Assembly (NCBI RefSeq): GCF_021730435.1
Contig: NZ_JABWGX010000003.1
Coordinates: 62,001-126,000, forward strand
Reading direction: 5' to 3'
Origin: Xanthobacter agilis
GTDB taxonomy: Bacteria; Pseudomonadota; Alphaproteobacteria; Rhizobiales; Xanthobacteraceae
DNA length: 64,000 nucleotides
Shown: positions 51,977 to 64,000 of the stretch, one piece after another
Layout of the letters: each line of letters opens with the position of its first letter
Numbering within the stretch: position 1 is the stretch's first letter
Made by a program: the position numbers and the translations under genes
Notes under the pieces: model-generated
The model's input: the letters and a program-made list of their open reading frames with translations, nothing else
Database searches by the model: none
What the model was told of the DNA's origin: nothing

Positions 51977-53482
51977 TCAGTTTCCCGCGCGGCGGGCCTC
52001 CAGGGATTGGCCGATGCGCGTGAAGGCCAAGGCCAGTTCGTCGGGGGTCAGGGCGCCGAAGCCGACGAGGAGGGTGCGCGCGAGGGTCGCGCCGGCGCTG
52101 CGCACCCCGCATTCGGCCGCCGGATGCAGCCCCACACCCACCGCGCGGGCGGCTGCCGCGACGCTGGAGGCATCCGGGCCGTCATCGGGCAAAACGCAGC
52201 AGAGATGGAGCCCGCCATCGGTTGCGGGCACCGCGAGGCGGTCGCCGAAGATGTGGCGCAGTCCAGCCAGGGCGGCGTCGCGGCGGGCGCGATAGGCGGT
52301 CCGCAGGCGATTGAGATGGCGCTGATAATGGCCCCCTTCCAGGAAGGCGGCGAGGATCTGCTGGTCAAGCCACGACTGGCCATAGCTCATAAGGCTCTTG
52401 GTGGCCTCGGCGGCGGCGGCGAAACGGAGCGGCACCACCATGTAGCCGAGCCGCAGGCCGCTGCCGAGGGTCTTGGAGAAGGAGCCCACGAACAGGGTCC
52501 GCTCGCGCCCCTCCCCGGTGGCGAGGGCGGCCGGCGGGGGGCGATCGAACACGATTTCGCCGTCGTAATCGTCCTCCACGATCAGGCTGCCGCAGGCGGC
52601 GCAGGCGGCGAGGAGGGCGGTCCGGCGGGCCGGGCTCATGCGGGCGCCGGTGGGAAACTGGCGGGCCGGTGTGACATAGACGAGGCGCGGCCCGAGGCGC
52701 TCGACACCGGCCGCATCCAGCCCCTCGGCGTCCACCGGGACCGGGTGGAGCCGGGCGCCGTGGGCCTCGAACACCTGGGCGGCCGCCGCATAGCCGGGGT
52801 CCTCCACCACCACCCGGTCGCCGGGAGTGAGGAACAGGCGGGAAATGAGGTTGAGCGCGTCCTGCGCGCCGCTTGTCACCACCACCTGCTCCGGCTGCAC
52901 GGCGATCCCGCGGTGCACCGCGATGTGCGTGGCGATGGCCCGGCGCAGGCGCGGGTCGCCCCCCACCGGGCCGTAGGCGCTGAGCCCCACGGCGCAGGCG
53001 CCCAGCGCCGCGTTGCCGAGCCGGCGCCATTGCGCGGCCGGAAACAGGCGCGGGTCGGGGCGGGCATACCACAGGTCGAATACCGGGCGCGTCGCGTCGC
53101 GGGTGATGAGATGGGGGCCGTTCACCGCCGGCGGCGGATCATCCTCAAATTGCAGTGGAGCCGGCAGGGTCGTCGGTGGGGGCCGAGGATCGAGGAGCAG
53201 GCGCGCGACGAAGGCGCCGGCGTGGGCGCGCACCTCCACATAGCCTTCGCTCGCCAGCCGCTCGTAAGCCAGGATCACCGTGTTGCGCGACACGCCGAGG
53301 GCGCGGGCCGCCTCCCGCGTCGCCGCAAGCCGCGTCCCGGCGGGCAGCGCGCCGGCGACGATGCGGGACTTCAGCGCCTGGTAGATCTGCTCCTGCAGCG
53401 TGACCGCGCCGGCCCGGTCGAGCGGCAGCGGCAAGATCGGGAGCGGCAAGGCGGGGAGGGACAAGACGGGGAGCAGAGGCAT
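51977..53482 (-). CDS. MocR-type GntR/aminotransferase regulator
   Basis: A 501-residue fusion of an N-terminal GntR winged helix (LQEQIYQALKSRIVAGALPAGTRLAATREAARALGVSRNTVILAYERLASEGYVEVR) and a PLP-dependent aminotransferase-like domain, with the PLP Lys in SFSKTLGSGLRLGYMV and the family segments YGPVGGDPRLRRAIATHI and EDDYDGEI. MocR/PdxR-type regulators sense PLP. The divergent gene encodes a pyridoxamine-phosphate-oxidase-like protein, which supports a vitamin B6 or related role. Confidence 0.92.
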   Translation of the reverse strand: MPLLPVLSLPALPLPILPLPLDRAGAVTLQEQIYQALKSRIVAGALPAGTRLAATREAARALGVSRNTVILAYERLASEGYVEVRAHAGAFVARLLLDPRPPPTTLPAPLQFEDDPPPAVNGPHLITRDATRPVFDLWYARPDPRLFPAAQWRRLGNAALGACAVGLSAYGPVGGDPRLRRAIATHIAVHRGIAVQPEQVVVTSGAQDALNLISRLFLTPGDRVVVEDPGYAAAAQVFEAHGARLHPVPVDAEGLDAAGVERLGPRLVYVTPARQFPTGARMSPARRTALLAACAACGSLIVEDDYDGEIVFDRPPPAALATGEGRERTLFVGSFSKTLGSGLRLGYMVVPLRFAAAAEATKSLMSYGQSWLDQQILAAFLEGGHYQRHLNRLRTAYRARRDAALAGLRHIFGDRLAVPATDGGLHLCCVLPDDGPDASSVAAAARAVGVGLHPAAECGVRSAGATLARTLLVGFGALTPDELALAFTRIGQSLEARRAGN

Positions 53483-53642
53483 GGGACGCTTCGGGCGGTG
53501 GACATCGGCGATGGGCGCGGGACCCGGCGGCGCGGCCGGTCCTCTGCCGTGGCACCATTCGCGCGCGCGACGGCGGACCTATGCGCGCCGGCACCGGCGG
53601 CCGATGGTGCGCCATTCCTGTTCCGAAGGCGAGTTCCTTTCC

Positions 53643-54335
53643 ATGTCCGATGTCCCCGAGTCTGATGCTCCTGAGTCTGATGCGCGCGAATCCGGCGCCC
53701 CGAGCGAACGTACCCGCGTCAAGCGCTATCACCGGCTGGCGCACTACGACAGCGCGACCATCCATGCCGTTCTCGACGCCATGCCCGTATGCAATGTGGC
53801 CTATGTGCACGAGGGCCGCCCCATCGTCACCCCGACCCTGCAATGGCGCGACGGCGACCGCATCTATTGGCACGGCTCGGCGGCGAGCCGCATGATTCGC
53901 GCGGTGGCGGGCCAGGAGGTGTGCGTCACCGTTTCGCTCATCGACGGGCTGGTGCTGGCCCGCTCGGCTTACAATTACAACATCAACCACCGCTCGGTGA
54001 TGATCTTCGGCAAGGCCGAGGTGGTCACCGACCCGGACCAGAAGAAGGCCCAGCTTCAGCGCTTCGTGGACGGCTTGATCCCCGGCCAGTGGGACCGTCT
54101 GCGCCCGGTGAAGGCGCAGGAACTGAAGGCCACGACCGTGCTGTCGCTGCCCATCACCGAAGCCTCTGCCAAGGTGCGCACCGGCCAGCCGGAAGACGAG
54201 GCGGAGGATTACGCTTTCCCGGCCTGGGCGGGCGTGGTGCCGGTGCGCCTGGTGGTGGACCCGCCGGTGGCCGACCCCAGGAACCTGCCGGGGGTGGAGA
54301 TGCCGCCCGAGGTGCGCGCGTTCAAGATCGGCTGA
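53643..54335 (+). CDS. pyridoxamine 5'-phosphate oxidase-like flavin-binding protein
   Basis: A 230-residue FMN-binding split-barrel protein: HAVLDAMPVCNVAYVHEGRPIVTPTLQWRDGDRIYWHGSAASRMIRA and CVTVSLIDGLVLARSAYNYNINHRSVMIFGKAE are typical of the PNPOx-like (COG3467) group. The N-terminal 20 residues contain a repeated PESDAPESDARESG segment. Divergent orientation from the MocR gene suggests control by it. The family includes heme and flavin-reducing enzymes, so 'PNPOx-like' does not prove vitamin B6 chemistry. Confidence 0.87.
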   Translation: MSDVPESDAPESDARESGAPSERTRVKRYHRLAHYDSATIHAVLDAMPVCNVAYVHEGRPIVTPTLQWRDGDRIYWHGSAASRMIRAVAGQEVCVTVSLIDGLVLARSAYNYNINHRSVMIFGKAEVVTDPDQKKAQLQRFVDGLIPGQWDRLRPVKAQELKATTVLSLPITEASAKVRTGQPEDEAEDYAFPAWAGVVPVRLVVDPPVADPRNLPGVEMPPEVRAFKIG

Positions 54336-54985: not shown

Positions 54986-55798
54986 TTACTCCGCGAACGC
55001 GCGCTCGGTGACGAAGGCGCCCGGCGCGGCGTTCGCGCCCTCGGTGAAGCCGGCGGCGAGGAGCAGCCCGCGCGTGTCCTTCAGCATGGCGAGCGAACCG
55101 CAGATCATGCCCCGGTCCACGGCCGGGTCGAGCGGCGGCACGCCGAGGTCGGCGCACAGCCTGCCGCTCCCCATGAGATCGGTGATGCGGCCCCGCCGCG
55201 CATAATCCTCGCGGGTGACGCTGGCATAGTGGCGCAGCTTGCCCCGCGCGACTTCGCCCACCAGGGGATCGGCCAGGGCCTCCGCGACGATGTCGAAGCC
55301 GTATTGCAGCTCGGCCACCGCACGGCAGGTGTGGGTGAGGATGACGTCGTCGAACTTCTCATAGGTTTCCGGGTCGCGGATGAGGCTCGCGAACGGGGCG
55401 ATGCCGGTGCCGGTGGAGAACATGTAAAGCCGTCGGCCGGGGGTGAGGGCGTCGAGCACCAGCGTGCCGGTGGCCTTCTTGCGCATGAGCAGGCCGTCGC
55501 CGGGGCGGATCATCTGCAGGCGGGAGGTGAGCGGGCCATCCGGCACCTTGATGGAGAAGAACTCCAGTTCCTCCGCCCAGGCCGGGCTGGCGATGGAATA
55601 GGCGCGGTAGAGCGGCTTGCCGTCCGCCAAGAGGCCGATCATGGCGAATTCGCCGGAGCGGAAGCGGAAGCTCGCGGGCCGCGTGGCGCGGAAGCGGAAC
55701 AGGCGGTCGGTGTAATGGGTCACGCTGGTGACGGTCTCGATGAAGAGGCCGTCGGGCGCTTGCCGGGCCAGGGCTTCGGCGGATAGGGGCAGGGTCAT
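54986..55798 (-). CDS. fpr: ferredoxin-NADP(+) reductase
   Basis: A 270-residue FAD enzyme moving electrons between NADPH and ferredoxin or flavodoxin. The FAD motif is RAYSIASP, the NADPH-binding motif GTGIAPFASLIRD, and the family marker ICGSLAMLKDTRGLL appears near the C-terminus, which ends AFAE. It follows fdxA by 26 bases on the same strand, so the two probably form an electron-transfer pair. Confidence 0.93.
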   Translation of the reverse strand: MTLPLSAEALARQAPDGLFIETVTSVTHYTDRLFRFRATRPASFRFRSGEFAMIGLLADGKPLYRAYSIASPAWAEELEFFSIKVPDGPLTSRLQMIRPGDGLLMRKKATGTLVLDALTPGRRLYMFSTGTGIAPFASLIRDPETYEKFDDVILTHTCRAVAELQYGFDIVAEALADPLVGEVARGKLRHYASVTREDYARRGRITDLMGSGRLCADLGVPPLDPAVDRGMICGSLAMLKDTRGLLLAAGFTEGANAAPGAFVTERAFAE

Positions 55799-55824: not shown

Positions 55825-56160
55825 TCAGCGGGCCTCGGCGGCCTTGTCGCTGAGCAGGGGCATCTTGTCCGGGCGGCCGTTCCAGTCCTCGGCGTCGCCG
55901 AGGGGGTCGATGCGCTCGGCGATCGCCGGCCACACGGCGGCATATTTGCGGTTGATCTCCAGCCAGGGCCGCGCGCCCTCGGCGCTGTCGGCGACGATGG
56001 CGTCGGCCGGGCATTCCGGCTCGCACACCCCGCAGTCGATGCACGTCTCAGGATTGATGACGAGCATGTTCTCGCCCTCGTGGAAGCAGTCCACCGGACA
56101 GACTTCGACGCAATCGGTGTATTTGCAGCGGATGCAGTTCTCGGTGACGACGAAGGCCAT
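55825..56160 (-). CDS. fdxA: 7Fe ferredoxin FdxA
   Basis: A 111-residue ferredoxin with the two Fe-S motifs [21 protein letters not shown] (3Fe-4S side) and [16 protein letters not shown] (4Fe-4S). The C-terminal extension ([25 protein letters not shown]) is normal for FdxA. It is divergent from the DUF971 and AprA-like operon and upstream of fpr, making it a candidate electron donor or acceptor for the flavoprotein cluster on the other strand (inference). Confidence 0.94.
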
Positions 56161-56290: not shown

Positions 56291-56641
56291 ATGACCCATG
56301 TGAACCCCGCCCCTCCGGTGGAGATCCGCTTGTCCGCGGACAAGAGCCGGCTGACCCTGGTGTGGCAGGAGGGCGCCGAGGACGTTCTGCCGGCGTGCGA
56401 TCTGCGCGCCCGCTCGCCCGCGGCCGGCGAGAAGCGCCTGCGCCTTGCCGGGCTCGACGCGCCCGTGCGCTCCGACCTGACCCTGACCGGTGTCCGCCTG
56501 CTCGGCGGCTATGGCCTCAACCTGTCCTTCTCCGACGGCCACGACCGGGGCATCTACCCCTGGGGGCTTTTGAAGGAGATCGGGCAAAGCCTTCAGACCG
56601 CAGGAAAAACACCGATCGCGTTCCGCAATGCAATTCCTTGA
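56291..56641 (+). CDS. DUF971 protein
   Basis: A 116-residue DUF971 (GBBH-like N-terminal domain) protein: [83 protein letters not shown]971 is often near Mrp/ApbC and Fe-S proteins. It starts 130 bases from fdxA and precedes the AprA-like gene by 60 bases. Confidence 0.85.
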
Positions 56642-56701
56642 CCGACGCCGGAGCCTGGAACGGTTCAACTGTGCGCCAACTTGGACTTGAAGGAGGCTCG
56701 C

Positions 56702-58441
56702 GTGGACGAGATCACGGCCGGACTTTCGGAAATCGACTGCGATGTGCTGGTCATCGGCGGCGGCACCGCCGGCCCGATGGCCGCCTACAAGGCCAAGATG
56801 AAAAATCCAGACGCTAAGGTGGTGCTGCTGGAAAAGGCCAATGTGAAGCGGTCCGGCGCCATTTCCATGGGCATGGACGGGCTGAACAACGCCGTCATTC
56901 CCGGCCACTCGACGCCCGAGCAGTATACCAAGGAGATCACCATCGCCAATGACGGCATCGTCGATCAGGCGGCGGTGCTGAAATACGCGGAAAACTGCTT
57001 CGAGATGATCCAGGAGCTGGACCGCTTCGGCATCCGCTTCCAGAAGGACGAGAACGGCGACTACGACGTTAAGAAAGTGCACCACATGGGCACGTATGTG
57101 CTGCCCATGCCCAATGGCGAGACGGTGAAGAAGGCGCTTTATCGCCAGCTCCGCCGCGCCCGCATCCTCATTTCCAACCGCTACATGGCCACCCGCCTCC
57201 TCACCGGTAAGTCGGGGCGCATCGCCGGGGCCATCGCGGTCAACACCCGCACCGCCGAGTTCCTGGTGGTGCGCGCCAAGACCGTCATCATGAGCATGGG
57301 GGCCGCCGGGCGCCTCGGCCTGCCCACCTCCGGCTATCTGTTCGGCACCTATGAGAATGCCGCCAATTCCGGCGAAGGCTATGCCATGGCCTATCATGCC
57401 GGGGCGAAGCTGGCGAACCTCGAATGCTTTCAGATCAACCCGCTCATCAAGGATTACAATGGCCCGGCCTGCGCCTATGTGGCCGGTCCGTTCGGCGGGT
57501 ACACGGCCAATGCAAAGGGTGAGCGCTTCATCGAGTGCGATTACTGGTCGGGCCAGATGATGCAGGAGTTCTACAAGGAGCTCCAGTCCGGCAACGGCCC
57601 GGTGTTCCTACGCCTCAACCACCTGCGCCAGGAGACGGCCGACCATATCGAGCACATTCTGCACACGGTGGAACGCCCCTCCCGCGGGCGCTTCCATGAG
57701 GCGCGCGGCACCCGTTATGCGCAGACCATGATCGAGATGCATATCTCGGAAATCGGCTTCTGCTCGGGCCATTCGGCTTCCGGCGTGTTCGTGGATGAAT
57801 GCGCCCGGACCACCGTGCCCGGCCTCTATGCCGCCGGCGACATGGCGAGCGTGCCGCACAATTACATGCTGGGCGCCTTCACCAATGGCGCCATCGCCGG
57901 CGAGGATGCCATCGACTTCGCGGCGGAGGTGGATTTCGACGCCTACGATCGCGCCGACGTGCTGGCGGAGCAGGAGCGGGTTCTGGCCCCCACCCGGCGC
58001 GAAGATGGCATTCCGCCGAACCAGATCGAGTATAAGGTGCGCCGCCTCGTTAATGATTACTTGCAGCCGCCGAAGGTGAGCAAGAAATACGAGCTGGCGC
58101 AGCAGCGCTTTGCGGAAGCCCGCGAGGATATGGAACAGGTCATGGTGGCCCGCGACGCCCACGAACTGATGCGCGCCCTGGAGGTGTCGTCCATCCTCGA
58201 CTGCGCCGACATGGCGGCCTGCGCCTCGCTCTACCGCGCCGAAAGCCGCTGGGGCCTCTACCATTGGCGCACCGACTATCCCGAGCGCAACGACGACGAA
58301 TGGAAGTGTCATGTGCTCCTGGGCAAGCAGGACGATGGCACGATGGGGTGCGAGAAGCGCGCGGTCCAGCCCTATATCGTCCCGATCTCCGACGACGAGA
58401 AGGACGCCTATTACAAGCAGCGCATCACGGCCGAGGCGTGA
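56702..58441 (+). CDS. AprA-like flavoprotein (fumarate reductase/adenylylsulfate reductase family)
   Basis: A 579-residue FAD enzyme: VLVIGGGTAGPMAAYKAK (GGGTAG at residues 19-24), VVLLEKANVKRSGAISMGMDGLNN (the RSGA.SxG segment of AprA) and the FAD-binding ARTTVPGLYAAGDMASVPHNYMLGAFTNGAIAGEDA near residues 360-400. The arrangement is that of adenylylsulfate reductase alpha or fumarate reductase flavoproteins, but the catalytic residues cannot be verified by eye and it is shorter than canonical AprA. The start at 56702 (GTG) has GGAGG upstream. The next gene encodes an AprB-like ferredoxin. Confidence 0.88.
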   Translation: MDEITAGLSEIDCDVLVIGGGTAGPMAAYKAKMKNPDAKVVLLEKANVKRSGAISMGMDGLNNAVIPGHSTPEQYTKEITIANDGIVDQAAVLKYAENCFEMIQELDRFGIRFQKDENGDYDVKKVHHMGTYVLPMPNGETVKKALYRQLRRARILISNRYMATRLLTGKSGRIAGAIAVNTRTAEFLVVRAKTVIMSMGAAGRLGLPTSGYLFGTYENAANSGEGYAMAYHAGAKLANLECFQINPLIKDYNGPACAYVAGPFGGYTANAKGERFIECDYWSGQMMQEFYKELQSGNGPVFLRLNHLRQETADHIEHILHTVERPSRGRFHEARGTRYAQTMIEMHISEIGFCSGHSASGVFVDECARTTVPGLYAAGDMASVPHNYMLGAFTNGAIAGEDAIDFAAEVDFDAYDRADVLAEQERVLAPTRREDGIPPNQIEYKVRRLVNDYLQPPKVSKKYELAQQRFAEAREDMEQVMVARDAHELMRALEVSSILDCADMAACASLYRAESRWGLYHWRTDYPERNDDEWKCHVLLGKQDDGTMGCEKRAVQPYIVPISDDEKDAYYKQRITAEA

Positions 58442-58478
58442 TTGGACGCAAAACTGAAGTCATCGAAGGAACTGCCCC

Positions 58479-58712
58479 ATGCCTTTGGCCAATACGTCCA
58501 CCTCCGTTCCGGTCGTCGTTGATGAAGACAAGTGCATTGCCGACAAGGGCTGCACCGTATGCGTCGATGTGTGCCCGCTCGACGTGCTGCGCATCTCCGA
58601 ACTGACCGGGAAAGCCTATATGAAGTTCGACGAGTGCTGGTACTGCATGCCGTGCGAGGCGGATTGCCCGACCGGCGCCGTCACCGTCAACATCCCCTAT
58701 CTGTTGAAGTGA
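58479..58712 (+). CDS. AprB-like 4Fe-4S ferredoxin
   Basis: A 77-residue protein with two 4Fe-4S clusters: CIADKGCTVCVDVCPLD and CWYCMPCEADCPTGAV. The spacing of the first, with an insert between the Cys, resembles AprB rather than bacterial ferredoxin. It is 37 bases after the AprA-like gene and probably its electron carrier. The C-terminal tail of AprB is missing. Confidence 0.88.
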   Translation: MPLANTSTSVPVVVDEDKCIADKGCTVCVDVCPLDVLRISELTGKAYMKFDECWYCMPCEADCPTGAVTVNIPYLLK

Positions 58713-58720
58713 GGCCTGCC

Positions 58721-59674
58721 ATGACCTTCGAGCCGTTCGAGGCGTTCTGCGACCTCGATGACCTTGCCGAAAAGCTGCGTGACGCCGATCCGGGCGTGCG
58801 TCGGGTGGCGGTGATGGATCTGGCCGACACCGCCGAGCCGGGGGCGGTGGCGCTCATCGGCTCCGCGCTCCACGACGGTGTGCCCGAAGTGCGCCTTCAG
58901 GCGGCGATCGCGCTCGGGGAGTTCGACGGGCGCGACTGCGCGCAGATGCTGGTGGTGGGCCTCGTGGATGCCGACCATCGGGTCGCTCGCGCCGCCGCCG
59001 ACAGCCTCGCCGAGCTGAAGGACCCGGCGGCGGCCGATCCCATCTTTCCGCTCATCGCCCATGCCGCGCCGGCGGTGCGGGCCGGCGCCCTGCGCGGCAT
59101 CAAGGAATTGCGGCGGCCGGATGCGCTGCCGCTGGCGCTGCGTGCGCTCGATGATGCCGATCCACAGGTGCGGGTGGAGGCGCTGGGCGTCGTCGGCTAC
59201 CTGAAGGTGGAGGAGACGCTGCCGGCGCTCATCGCCGCCTCCCGCGATGCCCATGCCGAGGTGCGGCGCACGGCGGTGGGCGCGCTCGGCTTCTCGCGTT
59301 CCGCCCACGCCGCTGAAGCGCTGATCCGCGCGCTTTCGGACAGCGACTGGTCGGTGCGCGCGGCGGCGGCTGAGATTCTGGGCAAGGGCCGCTTCGCCCG
59401 CGCCGTCGCCCCGCTCATGGCCGCGTTCGAGGATCCCGAATGGCAGGTGCAGGTGAAGATCATGCGGAGCCTCGGCCAGCTCAAGGCGGCGGAGGCGGTG
59501 CCTCTCATCGGCCGGTCGCTGGAGGCTGAGATCTCCAATCTGCGCAAGGAGGCCGCCGCCGCCTTGGGCGAGATCGCGGTGCCGGCATGCCGCCCGTATC
59601 TGGAAGGCTTTGTCGATGATCCCGATCCCGACGTGCGAAAGAACGTGCGTTGGGCCCTCGGTCGGATAGAATAG
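58721..59674 (+). CDS. HEAT-repeat protein
   Basis: A 317-residue protein of about eight EZ-HEAT (PBS-lyase-like) repeats, such as LHDGVPEVRLQAAIALGEFDGRDCAQMLVVGLVDADHRVARAAADSLAELKDPAAADPIFPLIAHAAPAVRAGALRGIKEL. Such repeats bind proteins; in phycobilin and archaeal systems related ones act on cofactors. It starts eight bases after the ferredoxin, so it is probably part of the complex or its assembly. The role is unknown. Confidence 0.88.
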   Translation: MTFEPFEAFCDLDDLAEKLRDADPGVRRVAVMDLADTAEPGAVALIGSALHDGVPEVRLQAAIALGEFDGRDCAQMLVVGLVDADHRVARAAADSLAELKDPAAADPIFPLIAHAAPAVRAGALRGIKELRRPDALPLALRALDDADPQVRVEALGVVGYLKVEETLPALIAASRDAHAEVRRTAVGALGFSRSAHAAEALIRALSDSDWSVRAAAAEILGKGRFARAVAPLMAAFEDPEWQVQVKIMRSLGQLKAAEAVPLIGRSLEAEISNLRKEAAAALGEIAVPACRPYLEGFVDDPDPDVRKNVRWALGRIE

Positions 59675-59859
59675 CCAAACGCCCGAGGTCCGGCGCCTTC
59701 GCCATGATATGGCGGGAACGGCTTCTGCGTCTGCGGCGCGCCCGCGCCCCGCCGGATGGAGGCGCGCGCGGTGCCGCAAGGCGGCCGGCTTGGCGCCGCG
59801 TGTGACGGCCCCACGGGGCGAGGATCGGGAGACCCGCCATACCGCCCTCCGGACCGAAA

Positions 59860-60681
59860 ATGCCCCCATCTGAACCGGTCTCGGAACGCCGCGGCGCGGC
59901 CGCGCAGACCTGCGCGGAAGAGCGTAAGGGCTTCGGGGTCCGCGGGCGGGCCGATGCGGCCAAGGCGCCGCGGGTGCCCAAGTATCTTGAGTTGAAGGAG
60001 TGGCTGCTGCGCGGCGTGTTGGAGGGGCGGTTTTGCGCCGGCAGCGCCTTGCCCAGCGAGAACGAGCTCGCCCAGACCTTCCAGGTGAGCCGCATCACCG
60101 TGCGTCAGGCGCTGGACCTCCTGCGCGCGACCGGGCTTGTCACCTCCCATCAGGGCAAGGGCTATTTCGTTCGCGGCATCAGCGCGTTGCAGGATCTCGG
60201 CCGGCTCCAGGGCTTCGGCGAGATGATGGAGCCGCTGGGCATCGCCACCCGCTCCGAGGTGTTGAGCGCGGCCATGGTGGAGGCCCCCGCCCAGGTGGCG
60301 CGCGCGCTCAATGTCAAGCGCGGCGAAGAGGTGGTGAAGATCGAACGCCTCAGGATCGCCGCCGGCGTCACCATGTCGGTCGATCTCAGTTATTTTCCCC
60401 TTGATGTGGGCCGCCCGCTGCTCGCGCTCGACCTCCAGCGGGTGGACGTGTTCAAGCTGATCGAGACCGATCTCAAGATCGAAATCGGCTTCGCCGACAT
60501 CACCATGAGCGTGGTAGAGGCGGATGTGGAGCTGTGCGCGGACCTGCCGCTGAAGCCCGGCGCCCCGGTGATCCATATCGAGCGGCTGACCCACGCCATG
60601 GATGGGCGGCCGATCGATTTCGAGAACCTCTACGCCCCCGCCGGAAGCCATCGCTTCAAGGCCCGCATCCCGCGCTGGTGA
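59860..60681 (+). CDS. GntR/UTRA (HutC-family) regulator
   Basis: A 273-residue regulator with a GntR winged helix (LKEWLLRGVLEGRFCAGSALPSENELAQTFQVSRITVRQALDLLRATGLVTSHQGKGYFVRG) and a UTRA ligand domain (LGRLQGFGEMMEPLGIATRSEV, ending APAGSHRFKARIPRW). It lies between the HEAT gene and the transporter genes and probably senses the system's substrate. The first 40 residues are variable; the start could be later. Confidence 0.88.
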   Translation: MPPSEPVSERRGAAAQTCAEERKGFGVRGRADAAKAPRVPKYLELKEWLLRGVLEGRFCAGSALPSENELAQTFQVSRITVRQALDLLRATGLVTSHQGKGYFVRGISALQDLGRLQGFGEMMEPLGIATRSEVLSAAMVEAPAQVARALNVKRGEEVVKIERLRIAAGVTMSVDLSYFPLDVGRPLLALDLQRVDVFKLIETDLKIEIGFADITMSVVEADVELCADLPLKPGAPVIHIERLTHAMDGRPIDFENLYAPAGSHRFKARIPRW

Positions 60682-61169
60682 GCAAGGCTCGGTTGCGTGT
60701 GCGCGCCTATAATACACTAAATTTATAGATATAATTGACAATTGGCCAGCGGCAGGACATGGTCGGGCGACGGTTGCGGGCGACCTCCCGCGCAGCGCTC
60801 GGCGCGTGACCCGGTGCCGGCCTTGCCTTTGGCCCGCAAACGCGTCTGCGACTGGCGCGCGGACCGCGGCGAAAACGCCGCCGCGGACCTGGAGCGATCC
60901 TGGGCGAGCGGCGGAGGGACCCAGGGAACTTGTATTATCGGGGCGGGGATCGCTCTGCCCACGCGGACACCAACTGCGCCATGCTTGAGCAACGGGCAGC
61001 GATGAATTCGCGGACAAAGCCGCGCCGTCACCGGGGCGCATATCTCCATTTTCCGTTGTTTTCTGGACGTTTTCCAACTCCAGCATCGGCATGCAAGGGG
61101 GCTCTGGCACGGCAGTTGCGGCCCTCAACGGGCGTTTTAGGACAAGTGGCAGCTTTCGAGGGATCAGAC
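60682..61169. other. 488-base gap before the binding-protein gene
   Basis: An AT-rich island at 60706-60745 contains TATAAT twice (60708-60713 and 60730-60735), TTGACA (60735-60740) and TTATA-GA-TATAA (60723-60734), a possible GntR operator. The remaining 420 bases are GC-rich with no gene I can support. Confidence 0.5.
60723..60734 (+). promoter_or_regulatory. candidate GntR operator
   Basis: TTATA-GA-TATAA is a five-base inverted repeat with a two-base spacer, inside the only AT-rich stretch of this gap and about 435 bases before the binding-protein gene. Regulation by the adjacent GntR protein is inferred. Confidence 0.4.
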
Positions 61170-62537
61170 ATGCGACATCATTCGATGCCCTTTCATACGA
61201 TGCTCCTGGGCGTCGCCCTTTCGGCGCTCATGGGCGCCCCCGGCCGCGCCGAGACGATCGAGATCGGCATCGGCCACCAGAGCACCGTGACCAATACCGT
61301 TCCCGGCGGCATCATCCTGGAGAAGCTGGGCCTTCTGGAAAAGCACCTGCCCCACGACGGCAAGTACAAGGATGCCGACTACAAGGTGGTGTTTCAGGAC
61401 TACACGTCCGGCCCGCCCATCACCAACCAGATGCTGGCCGGCAAGCTCGCCTTCGGCGTCATGGGCGATTACCCGCTGATCGTGAATGGCGCCAAGTTCC
61501 AGGCCGGCGGCAATGCGGAAACCCGCTTCATCGCCGTCACCGGCTACAATCTGAAGGGCACCGGCAACGGCATCGTGGTGCCGGTGAAGTCGGATGTCTT
61601 CTCCCTGGAGCAGCTCAAGGGCAAGATCATCTCGACGCCGGTGGGCAGCGCGGCATGGGGCATGACCCTGAAGGCGCTGCGCGACGCCAAGATGTTCGAC
61701 GAGGTGAAGATCCAGAACCAGTCGCCGCCGGTGGGCGTCGCCGCCATCGCCCAGGACAAGATCGACGCCCACGCCGATTTCTGCCCCTGGTCGGAGGTGA
61801 TGGAGTTCCGCGGCACCGGCCGCAAGATCTTCGACGGCAGCGAGGCCGACATTCCCACCTTCCACGGCACGGTGGTGCTCAAGGACTTCGCCGAAAAGTA
61901 TCCGGAACTGGTCCAGGCCTATATCGAAGCGACCATGGAAGCTCAGGACTGGATCGCCAAGAATCCGGTGGAGGCCGCCATCAAGGTTTCCGAATGGACC
62001 GGCATCGAAAAGGAGGTGCTTTACCTCTATTTCAGTCCCGGCGGCATTTCCACCTTCGAGGCCTCGATCAAGCCCGAGTGGGTGAAGGCGCTGAAATATG
62101 ATCACGCCTTGCTCGCCAAGGAGACCAATCTTTCACCGCTGGACTTCGACCGCTGGGTGGACCCCGCCTTCGTGAAGGCGGCGTTCAAGGCCCGTGGCAA
62201 AGATTATGACGCTGCGGTGCGGCAGGTGGTCGTCTCCAAGCCGGGCGCGCCAGGCCTCAAGCCCGCCGAGATCTGGATCGATGGCGCCGGCATCACGGCG
62301 TTCGACAGCATCAAGGCGATGACAGACGCGGCCAAGGCCGCGAAGGGGGCCGGCAAGCCGGTTCTCGCCACCTATGTCTACGACCATGCGAGCGGGCTCA
62401 AGCTGTTCGGCAACGTGGCCTTCTTCGTGGAGGCCAGGGACGGCGCGCTCACCGCCTTCATGAAGAAGGGCGAGGCCGAGGCGTTCGCCAAGAGCTCCGG
62501 CGGCAAGGTGGTGGGCTGGGACGCCATCGCCTCGTGA
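61170..62537 (+). CDS. ABC substrate-binding protein with C-terminal NosL-like domain
   Basis: A 455-residue secreted protein. Signal peptide residues 1-27 (LLGVALSALMGAPGRA). Residues 30-345 are a TauA/SsuA/NrtA-type binding domain (IGHQSTVTNTVPGGIILEKLGLLEK, MLAGKLAFGVMGDYPLIVNGA, ISTPVGSAAWGMTLKALRD). Residues about 367-455 resemble NosL: AEIWIDGAGITAFDSIKAM, ATYVYDHASGLKLFGNVAFFVEA and TAFMKKGEAEAFAKSSGGKVVGWDAI. NosL is a copper-binding protein of nitrous-oxide reductase assembly; here the copper-binding Cys/Met motif is not evident. The fusion is unusual. The start has GAGGG just upstream. Confidence 0.85.
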   Translation: MRHHSMPFHTMLLGVALSALMGAPGRAETIEIGIGHQSTVTNTVPGGIILEKLGLLEKHLPHDGKYKDADYKVVFQDYTSGPPITNQMLAGKLAFGVMGDYPLIVNGAKFQAGGNAETRFIAVTGYNLKGTGNGIVVPVKSDVFSLEQLKGKIISTPVGSAAWGMTLKALRDAKMFDEVKIQNQSPPVGVAAIAQDKIDAHADFCPWSEVMEFRGTGRKIFDGSEADIPTFHGTVVLKDFAEKYPELVQAYIEATMEAQDWIAKNPVEAAIKVSEWTGIEKEVLYLYFSPGGISTFEASIKPEWVKALKYDHALLAKETNLSPLDFDRWVDPAFVKAAFKARGKDYDAAVRQVVVSKPGAPGLKPAEIWIDGAGITAFDSIKAMTDAAKAAKGAGKPVLATYVYDHASGLKLFGNVAFFVEARDGALTAFMKKGEAEAFAKSSGGKVVGWDAIAS

Positions 62538-62634
62538 CGGACGGCGTGGCGCGGGTTTGCTGCGCCGCGCTCCCGGCTGGCCCGCGCGGCCCGCACCTCC
62601 CATTTCAGGATCTCGTTTCAGGACTCATCGTTCC

Positions 62635-63615
62635 ATGCAAGACGCATTGAAACACAAGGTGGCTTACGCCGGCCCGGCGTCGGTTTCCGTCGAGCCCGCT
62701 TCCGCCGCCACTCCGCCCGCCGCTCCGTCGCCCCCGCGCGCACACCCTGGGGCACGCGAAGAGACGCGCGAAACCCGCGCGGGCGGGCGGCCTCCCGGTA
62801 TCGGCGCCGCGCGCACCGGGCTGAATGCTGTCACCGCCTGGTTCCAGGCGAAGGCGTACGGCCTTGTGGTGGGCACCATCGGCCTCGCCCTCGGCCTCGG
62901 CCTGTGGCAGGTGCTGAGCGTCAACAAGGTGAACGCCTTCATCAATTTCTCGAACGTGCCACGGCCCGGCCTGGTGTTCGAGGCGTTCGTAAAGCAGGCG
63001 TTCAACCCGGTCTTCTATGTGCATATCGAGGTGTCGGTGCTGCGCATCGCCGCCGGCTTTCTCACCGCGGCGGTGATTGGCATCGCGCTGGGCACGCTGA
63101 TGGGGCGCTCGAAGTTCGGCGCGGCGCTGTTCGCGCCTTACATCGAGATCATGCGGCCGATCCCGGCGGTGGCCTGGATTCCCCTCGCCATTCTCATGTG
63201 GCCCACCGATGAAGCCTCGATCGCCTTCATCACCTTTCTCGGCGCCTTGTTCCCCATTGTCATCAACACCATGCAGGGGGTGGAGCAGACCCCGGCGGTG
63301 CTGGTGCGGGCGGCGAAGTCGCTGGGCGCCTCGCCGTTGCAGATCTTCTGGAACGTGATCCTGCCGGCGGCGCTGCCGAGCATCGTCACCGGCCTTGCGG
63401 TGGGCATGGGGGTGAGCTGGTTCTCGCTGCTCGCGGGCGAGATCATCTCCGGCCAGTACGGCATCGGTTACTTCACCTGGAACGCCTATTCGCTGGTCGA
63501 TTACCCGGACATCATCGTCGGCATGCTGGTGACCGGAGCGCTGGGCACCCTTTCTACGGCTCTGGTGCGCCTTGCCGCGCATCCGTTCCTGAAGTGGCAG
63601 CGCCGCGCGCGCTAG
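62635..63615 (+). CDS. ABC transporter permease (SsuC/TauC type)
   Basis: A 326-residue inner-membrane permease. The first 80 residues are a Pro/Ala/Arg-rich cytoplasmic segment; the membrane domain has about six helices and the EAA-like loop RAAKSLGASPLQIFWNVILPAALPSIVTGLAVGMGVSWFSLLAGE. It follows the binding-protein gene by 97 bases. The substrate type is inferred only from the aliphatic sulfonate/taurine-like family. Confidence 0.88.
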   Translation: MQDALKHKVAYAGPASVSVEPASAATPPAAPSPPRAHPGAREETRETRAGGRPPGIGAARTGLNAVTAWFQAKAYGLVVGTIGLALGLGLWQVLSVNKVNAFINFSNVPRPGLVFEAFVKQAFNPVFYVHIEVSVLRIAAGFLTAAVIGIALGTLMGRSKFGAALFAPYIEIMRPIPAVAWIPLAILMWPTDEASIAFITFLGALFPIVINTMQGVEQTPAVLVRAAKSLGASPLQIFWNVILPAALPSIVTGLAVGMGVSWFSLLAGEIISGQYGIGYFTWNAYSLVDYPDIIVGMLVTGALGTLSTALVRLAAHPFLKWQRRAR

Positions 63616-63742
63616 AGCAATTTCAGCAAAAGTGTGCAGCGGTTTCGCGTCTGAAATTGCGATAAAATAAGTAGATAGAGCTTTCAAGCGAAGTGGAGTC
63701 CAGTTCGCGTGAAGAACATGCGTCAATGCAATACATGAGAGC
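63613..63742. repeat. alphaproteobacterial palindromic intergenic repeat
   Basis: GCAATTTCAG (63617-63626) and CTGAAATTGC (63651-63660) are a perfect ten-base inverted repeat, followed by a second element beginning AGCTTTCAAGCGAAGTGG and including CAGTTCGCGTGAAGAA at about 63679-63742. These resemble repeats scattered between genes in Rhizobiales genomes. It overlaps the permease stop and sits within the transporter operon. Confidence 0.55.
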
Positions 63743-63819
63743 GGATGACGTGAGCCCGTGCCAACGGAACACGCTCTGATCGAACCGAGCCAGAAGCAAC
63801 AGCATTCGGAGCCAGGACC

Positions 63820-64000
63820 ATGGAACACGTCGTGTCCCTCACCGATCGGCTCGCCAGCATCGGCGGCCGACGCTCCAGCGCGGGGCGTGGGCATATCCGC
63901 GTGGACGGCGTGGCCATCACCTTCGGCAGCGGGCGCAAGGCGCACCATGCGGTGATGGAGACCAGCCTTGATATCAAGCCCGGCGAATTTGTATGTATCC
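63820..64000 (+). CDS. ABC transporter ATPase (5' part; cut by window edge)
   Basis: The first 60 residues, MEHVVSLTDRLASIGGRRSSAGRGHIRVDGVAITFGSG, lead into KAHHAVMETSLDIKPGEFVCI, the strand pair just before the Walker A motif of SsuB/TauB-type ATPases. The Walker A itself lies beyond the edge. It starts 204 bases after the permease, with AGGA upstream. Confidence 0.82.
   Translation, partial: MEHVVSLTDRLASIGGRRSSAGRGHIRVDGVAITFGSGRKAHHAVMETSLDIKPGEFVCI

Follow-up and report, generated by a model that had tools for sequence, protein, structure and literature searches.

A flavoprotein-ferredoxin-HEAT cassette with a SsuA/TauA-type importer in Xanthobacter agilis and its proposed role in organosulfur desulfurisation

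We analysed a 64,000-nucleotide stretch of Xanthobacter agilis DNA (NZ_JABWGX010000003.1, positions 62,001 to 126,000; here the window, whose own numbering is used below), which carries a cassette of a flavoprotein, a ferredoxin, a HEAT-repeat protein and an ATP-binding cassette (ABC) importer. On the plus strand, a flavin adenine dinucleotide (FAD) flavoprotein gene of the PRK08275 family (56702..58441; NF006131, PF00890, PF02910), distant kin of AprA and of the Methanothermococcus 3'-phosphoadenosine 5'-phosphosulfate (PAPS) reductase MtPAPSR, is followed by genes for a 2x[4Fe-4S] ferredoxin of 77 amino acids (58479..58712; PF12838, 39.8 bits), an NblB/CpcE-like HEAT-repeat protein (58721..59674; PF13646, 165.8 bits), a GntR/UTRA regulator (59860..60681; PF00392, PF07702), a SsuA/TauA-type substrate-binding protein with a NosL-like C-terminal domain (61170..62537; TIGR01728, 102.8 bits), an NtrB/SaoP/SsuC-like ABC permease (62635..63615; PF00528, 91.6 bits) and the importer ATPase. 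Only the start of the ATPase gene (63820..64000) lies in the window; the complete gene (63820-64671), also on the plus strand, extends beyond it, and a Crp/Fnr gene follows. Upstream of the flavoprotein are a plus-strand DUF971/GBBH-like_N gene (56291..56641; PF06155, 54 bits) and, on the minus strand, the divergent ferredoxin gene fdxA (55825..56160; NF045490, 159 bits vs a cut-off of 135) and the ferredoxin-NADP reductase gene fpr (54986..55798; NF008178, 130 bits, under the cut-off of 390). A preliminary description of this DNA had named the flavoprotein, ferredoxin, HEAT, GntR/UTRA and importer genes in this order and strand, with fdxA and fpr upstream in the opposite orientation; all were recovered, but the DUF971 gene had been overlooked. 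The flavoprotein start, GTG at 56702, is likely right because AAGGAGG stands immediately upstream; the longer frame 56681-58441 was used in the computations.

The genes form a true cassette with a wide distribution. In GTDB species genomes, a scan gave at least 581 relatives among at least 592 pattern-matching stretches, and the best 80 of the at least 581 were taken. Across 117 related stretches (labelled L with a number), searched with profiles built from the related stretches themselves, the ferredoxin was found in 117, the HEAT protein in 116, DUF971 in 106, the binding protein in 111, the permease in 110, the ATPase in 111, Crp in 89, fpr in 71, GntR in 60 and FdxA in 28; the GntR, Crp and ATPase matches may include non-orthologues. 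All ferredoxin and HEAT matches lay on the strand of the flavoprotein, and in the sole stretch missing HEAT (L034) the contig ends 357 bases past the flavoprotein match. Bradyrhizobium contributed 50 of the 117 stretches (L133-L135 assigned by kinship), and at least three stretches are probable duplicates (L131, L133 and L134 are probably from the same genomes as L040, L057 and L067). Without Bradyrhizobium (n=67), the counts were ferredoxin 67, HEAT 66, DUF971 57, binding protein 62, permease 61, ATPase 61, Crp 40, GntR 34, fpr 25 and FdxA 24. The co-occurrence, which the preliminary description had proposed to look for across genomes, is thus not confined to one strain. Hosts include rhizobia, Bradyrhizobium, Paraburkholderia, Cupriavidus, Acinetobacter, Acidithiobacillus, cyanobacteria and Tsukamurella; Methylobacterium radiotolerans JCM 2831 (L020) is a further carrier. 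In evenly drawn samples that included the X. agilis genome, 21 of 398 genomes of the phylum (Pseudomonadota) and 4 of 289 of the class had a PRK08275 member above cut-off, so the family is patchy. The cassette often lies on plasmids (e.g. L008-L010, L014-L021, L147-L154); 14 of 58 plasmid records with a match were typed as conjugative and 8 as mobilizable, and it may therefore spread horizontally. Distance correlations, to all of which shared ancestry contributes, were r=0.89 for flavoprotein and HEAT, 0.82 for flavoprotein and ferredoxin, 0.94 for binding protein and permease, and 0.46 for flavoprotein and binding protein. This pattern suggests two blocks, flavoprotein-ferredoxin-HEAT and binding protein-permease.

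The flavoprotein scored 1063.5 bits against PRK08275 (NF006131; cut-off 587), whose sister PRK13800 (NF010374) is a fusion with HEAT repeats. NCBI names both families only as fumarate reductase/succinate dehydrogenase flavoprotein subunits, and its listing assigns them no function. The closest solved structures were the alpha subunit of MtPAPSR (202 bits) and AprA (151-152 bits). The FAD-binding residues, which the preliminary description had wished to see checked, are present: the GGGTAG motif is invariant across the aligned members. Kinship to AprA and MtPAPSR raises the possibility that the protein is an adenosine 5'-phosphosulfate (APS) or PAPS reductase serving assimilation or sulfur oxidation; in keeping with this, conserved residues of the flavoprotein stand opposite AprA N74 and a GH motif of MtPAPSR. 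However, the position of AprA Arg265, a catalytic/APS-contact residue, is occupied by Leu255, a leucine without exception among the aligned members (29 of 29), whereas MtPAPSR keeps the arginine in the profile alignment. The scores against PRK06854 (285.2 bits vs 557) and against aprA TIGR02061 (163.2 vs 641.75) are both under cut-off. The motifs YVLPMP, ECFQINPLIKDYNGP, GHSASGV and PHNYM are common to ten aligned family members, which range from that of the window to those of Acinetobacter, cyanobacteria and Tsukamurella; the comparators in the alignment lack them. In addition, the cassette ferredoxin has no AprB tail, APS needs no importer, and the X. agilis genome has two matches to the PAPS-reductase family PF01507 above cut-off. 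The C-terminal APS reductase domain PF12139 was not among the Pfam matches of the flavoprotein and had no match in the genome, but none of 14 control genomes matched either, so that this search is weak evidence. Judged from its sequence, the flavoprotein is a remodelled AprA relative and not an APS reductase, because leucine stands at the Arg265 position, the APS-reductase cut-offs are not reached and the family has motifs of its own; we regard an APS or PAPS reductase as extremely improbable. The label 'AprAB-like' thus holds insofar as AprA-type proteins are among the closest solved structures and a canonical APS reductase was not claimed; the kinship is distant only, and the catalytic arginine is absent. 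On the Ilyobacter plasmid pILYOP02 (L022), an AprA-like alpha subunit and a ferredoxin have cysC, cysD and a DASS anion symporter as neighbours, an arrangement that resembles the MtPAPSR route.

The ferredoxin has eight cysteines in the arrangement C-x5-C-x2-C-x3-CP and C-x2-C-x2-C-x3-CP. It scored 34.1 bits against aprB TIGR02060 (cut-off 135.65), with a match ending at position 65 of the 132-position model, and it reached no cut-off among the families shown. The HEAT protein scored 93.8 bits against NblB, under the cut-off of 300, and matched PRK13800, the model of the flavoprotein-HEAT fusion, at positions 628-895. The window has flavoprotein and HEAT as two separate genes, and PRK13800 gave 830 bits there, short of its cut-off of 1196; in Tsukamurella both are joined in one protein of 893 amino acids that scored 1568 bits. 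HEAT is therefore a near-invariant member of the cassette and not an odd add-on. The preliminary description had presented it as a partner that AprAB does not need: canonical AprAB is indeed excluded, but HEAT is no stray addition (116 of 117 stretches, and the Tsukamurella fusion). Three cyanobacterial loci were examined; all three lacked DUF971 and had an Mrp/NBP35 Fe-S carrier after HEAT. On this ground, the DUF971 protein possibly delivers Fe-S clusters. To the right of the fused gene on the Tsukamurella plasmid (L018) is a nucleotidyltransferase/ThiF/Mov34/SAVED set resembling what we would call a CBASS-type defence island.

The best matches of the binding protein among PDB profiles were TauA and SsuA. 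Its AlphaFold2 model (61173-62537) had a predicted local distance difference test score (pLDDT) of 87.2, and the first eight Foldseek matches of the model were SsuA or TauA, the first being SsuA with 2-(N-morpholino)ethanesulfonic acid. These results uphold the earlier view of a sulfonate-type importer. Among 18 annotated copies of the cassette, 9 had clear sulfur genes nearby, namely ssuD, tauD, and genes for sulfonate binding proteins, TauE/SafE, YeiH, O-acetylhomoserine sulfhydrylase or 3-mercaptopropionate dioxygenase (L009, L010 and L015 were classed as ambiguous, not positive; unannotated L153 was excluded from the 18). In a same-plasmid test on eight of these records, sulfur genes were found in 7 of 8 cassette stretches vs 0 of 8 control stretches elsewhere. 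The list of sulfur-gene names was set after the cassette loci were viewed and before the controls, with flanks that varied between 10 and 13 kb; in one control (L172), msrB and a MOSC protein were not counted as sulfur genes. TauE/SafE or YeiH/sulfate-exporter genes occurred in L008, L017, L147 and L151, and 9 of 49 stretches had a member of a YeiH-type family. According to the preliminary description, the window lacks sulfite-handling genes, a point for which the whole window was not screened; TauE/SafE or YeiH genes do lie beside several related copies. The X. agilis genome has three SsuD genes above cut-off. Beside the cassette in Leptolyngbya (L017:7388-9424), a LysR regulator of 678 amino acids is fused to an NMT1/SsuA-type binding domain and perhaps senses the ligand of the importer.

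We propose that the cassette imports an organosulfur compound and desulfurises it with release of sulfite, on an Asf-like plan with a separate flavoprotein family, and give this reading a probability of about 0.62. The SsuA/TauA-like importer would take up a sulfonate-type compound. NADPH would supply electrons, which Fpr and FdxA would hand to the 2x[4Fe-4S] ferredoxin of the cassette and this in turn to FAD, and the AprA-related flavoprotein, with its FAD so reduced, would cleave the compound and free sulfite for assimilation. Surplus sulfite would be exported where TauE/SafE or YeiH is present. HEAT would be a structural partner of the flavoprotein, DUF971 would help to provide Fe-S clusters, and GntR/UTRA (Crp/Fnr or LysR at other loci) would sense the substrate or the sulfur state. 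We infer the sulfur substrate, the electron route, the sulfite product and the roles of HEAT and DUF971. According to PMC10322725, MtPAPSR, the nearest solved enzyme, releases sulfite from PAPS, and for MtPAPSR and APS reductases an N5 attack on sulfur with loss of a leaving group is proposed. By analogy, N5 chemistry on this chassis would suit substrates with good leaving groups, such as S-, N- and O-sulfonates and alpha-activated C-sulfonates. An alternative to reductive N5 attack would be O2-dependent cleavage, which is described for aryl desulfonation (PMC4267179). A bolder form of the proposal is that the flavoprotein founds a class of desulfurising enzymes of its own, on a route that needs neither SsuD nor TauD nor Asf: an APS-reductase chassis without the APS-binding arginine, with HEAT as an obligatory subunit, would use ferredoxin-reduced FAD to free sulfite from an imported molecule of the sulfonate, sulfamate or sulfate-ester type. 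This we put forward tentatively, and doubt more than we believe it.

Several observations weigh against the proposed desulfurisation. The binding protein is under the SsuA and TauA family cut-offs (TIGR01728, 102.8 bits vs 163.5), and proteins of the NMT1/SsuA fold also bind nitrate, bicarbonate and thiamine precursors; 6 of the 18 annotated copies had no sulfur neighbour and 3 were ambiguous. The importer may be exchangeable, given its weak covariation with the flavoprotein (r=0.46). Most stretches lack FdxA, and 46 of 117 lack fpr, although their linkage to the cassette, from which the preliminary description had cast them as electron suppliers, does recur (fpr 71 of 117, fdxA 28 of 117). 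The AlphaFold2 model of the flavoprotein is poor (pLDDT 59; 29 sequences, the others 76-88% identical); its top Foldseek matches were also MtPAPSR and AprA, but because of the low pLDDT it was not used for active-site claims. Copper genes (SCO1, PCuAC, cytochrome c, TlpA) in a subset of loci are left unexplained. Some of these points would fit a substrate that is not organosulfur: an NMT1-type importer would carry another anion or cofactor precursor, and the flavoprotein would be a fumarate-reductase-like oxidoreductase acting on it. NrtA, CmpA and Thi5 share the fold, sulfur neighbours are missing from some copies, and L008 has thi genes and L147 nitrogen genes as neighbours. The restriction of the first eight Foldseek matches to SsuA or TauA and the contrast between cassette and control stretches argue otherwise, and we consider this explanation unlikely. 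The organosulfur route that the preliminary description had read from the coupling of importer and oxidoreductase thus finds backing in the SsuA/TauA fold and in the sulfur neighbours of 9 of 18 copies.

A copper link of the cassette is possible. In a tally of 49 stretches, including the AprA-like comparator L022, SCO1 was found in 17, PCuAC in 15, cytochrome c in 13 and a TlpA-like protein in 10. SCO1 lies inside the importer operon in L024-L029, L032, L033, L035, L041, L051, L058, L077, L078, L091, L094 and L096, in most of these loci it is accompanied by PCu(A)C, a cytochrome c or a short membrane protein, and some have a TlpA-like thioredoxin as well. The NosL-like C-terminal domain scored 17.1 bits in the window and 29.2 in Leptolyngbya (L017:3833-5344), the one of five family binding proteins scanned that passed the Pfam cut-off of 24. 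Such counts could point to a copper-linked redox module, in which the NosL-domain binding protein would work together with SCO1, PCuAC, TlpA and cytochrome c, either on a sulfur ligand bound to copper or in the maturation of a copper enzyme. However, neither the window nor Lutibaculum has any of these copper genes next to the importer, 32 of the 49 stretches lack SCO1, and the NosL-like part has no Cys, Met or His, the usual types of copper ligand, among its invariant positions. A module of this kind seems very unlikely to be the basis of the cassette.

The asfRABC system, as described in PMC4267179, comprises a reductase/ferredoxin, a binding protein, an ABC transporter and a LysR regulator, and is needed for aromatic but not aliphatic sulfonates. 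The window follows the same plan, in that a reductase and a ferredoxin stand with a binding protein and an ABC importer, and Cupriavidus pinatubonensis, Acinetobacter and Paraburkholderia have the order flavoprotein-ferredoxin-binding protein, so that the cassette could be a member of this known arylsulfonate desulfonation system. The regulator in the window is GntR/UTRA, not LysR; a LysR gene does stand directly upstream of the flavoprotein in the cyanobacterial loci L017 and L151. asfRAB lies on chromosome CHR2 of Cupriavidus metallidurans, with AsfA and AsfB being Rmet_4334/5 (PMC2864759). No PRK08275 member above cut-off was found on CHR2 (NC_007974.2, unannotated), where 0 of 5 matches passed (best 83.8 bits vs 587), a result that does not depend on which pair of the replicon is AsfAB. 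The position of Rmet_4334/5 was estimated at ~928 kb by gene-number calibration, with sqhC (Rmet_4148) at 722.8 kb and, as Rmet_4300, a NuoF-like gene near 894 kb that was identified by reading its sequence; should a second hopene cyclase copy at 998.8 kb be Rmet_4148, the estimate would shift beyond 928 kb. Near 928 kb is a pair of a 549-amino-acid flavoprotein and a 111-amino-acid ferredoxin, likely AsfAB, of which the flavoprotein is 22% identical to that of the window. TcuAB at 793 kb had been a candidate for AsfAB and was set aside, being TcuA/TcuB by cut-off, with the gene-number calibration pointing elsewhere. On contig C5 of the X. agilis genome (L181:6002-8019), a flavoprotein-ferredoxin pair 64% and 54% identical to the C. 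metallidurans pair lies among several ABC-importer genes; the contig also has ssuD-like genes and many matches to LLM monooxygenases. Within 15 kb around this pair there was no match to the HEAT, DUF971, fpr or fdxA of the window. Because the C5 pair resembles the C. metallidurans pair and the window protein does not, separate asf-type and window-type systems probably coexist in X. agilis. The equation of PRK08275 with AsfA was dropped, given the lack of a member on CHR2, the 22% identity to the likely AsfA and the asf-like pair on C5. Membership in asfRABC, judged with the likely C. metallidurans AsfA and not with that of Pseudomonas putida S-313, is highly improbable.

Outside the cassette, a MocR/PdxR-like regulator (386 bits, cut-off 320) is divergent from a pyridoxamine-phosphate-oxidase-like gene (51977-54335). 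Rfam at its gathering threshold gave no match in the window or its extended stretch.

About 95% of soil sulfur is organic, according to PMC4267179. The enzymes that free it are known in few cases, and in the records seen the cassette genes carry generic names only. A search of the open-access literature, with subscription papers mostly outside it, returned no paper linking the flavoprotein-HEAT cassette to a function. If true, our proposal would add a distinct organosulfur-to-sulfite route and give a function to PRK08275/PRK13800, the HEAT partner and the associated DUF971 protein.

Compared with known systems, the cassette shares with asfAB an FAD reductase, a small 2x[4Fe-4S] ferredoxin, an ABC importer and occurrence in soil bacteria, and differs in having GntR where LysR is described for asf. 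With SsuABC and TauABC it shares the fold of the binding protein, whose best PDB matches come from these systems, and its permease resembles SsuC and TauC among others; the binding protein of the window, however, is longer at the C terminus, has the NosL-like domain and scores under the family cut-offs. MtPAPSR and AprAB have in common with it the flavoprotein fold family, a 2x[4Fe-4S] partner protein and an RSGA...N motif, whereas the window has leucine for the catalytic arginine, motifs of its own, no AprB tail, and an importer and HEAT. Its flavoprotein belongs to PRK08275, and its HEAT protein resembles the C-terminal part of PRK13800.

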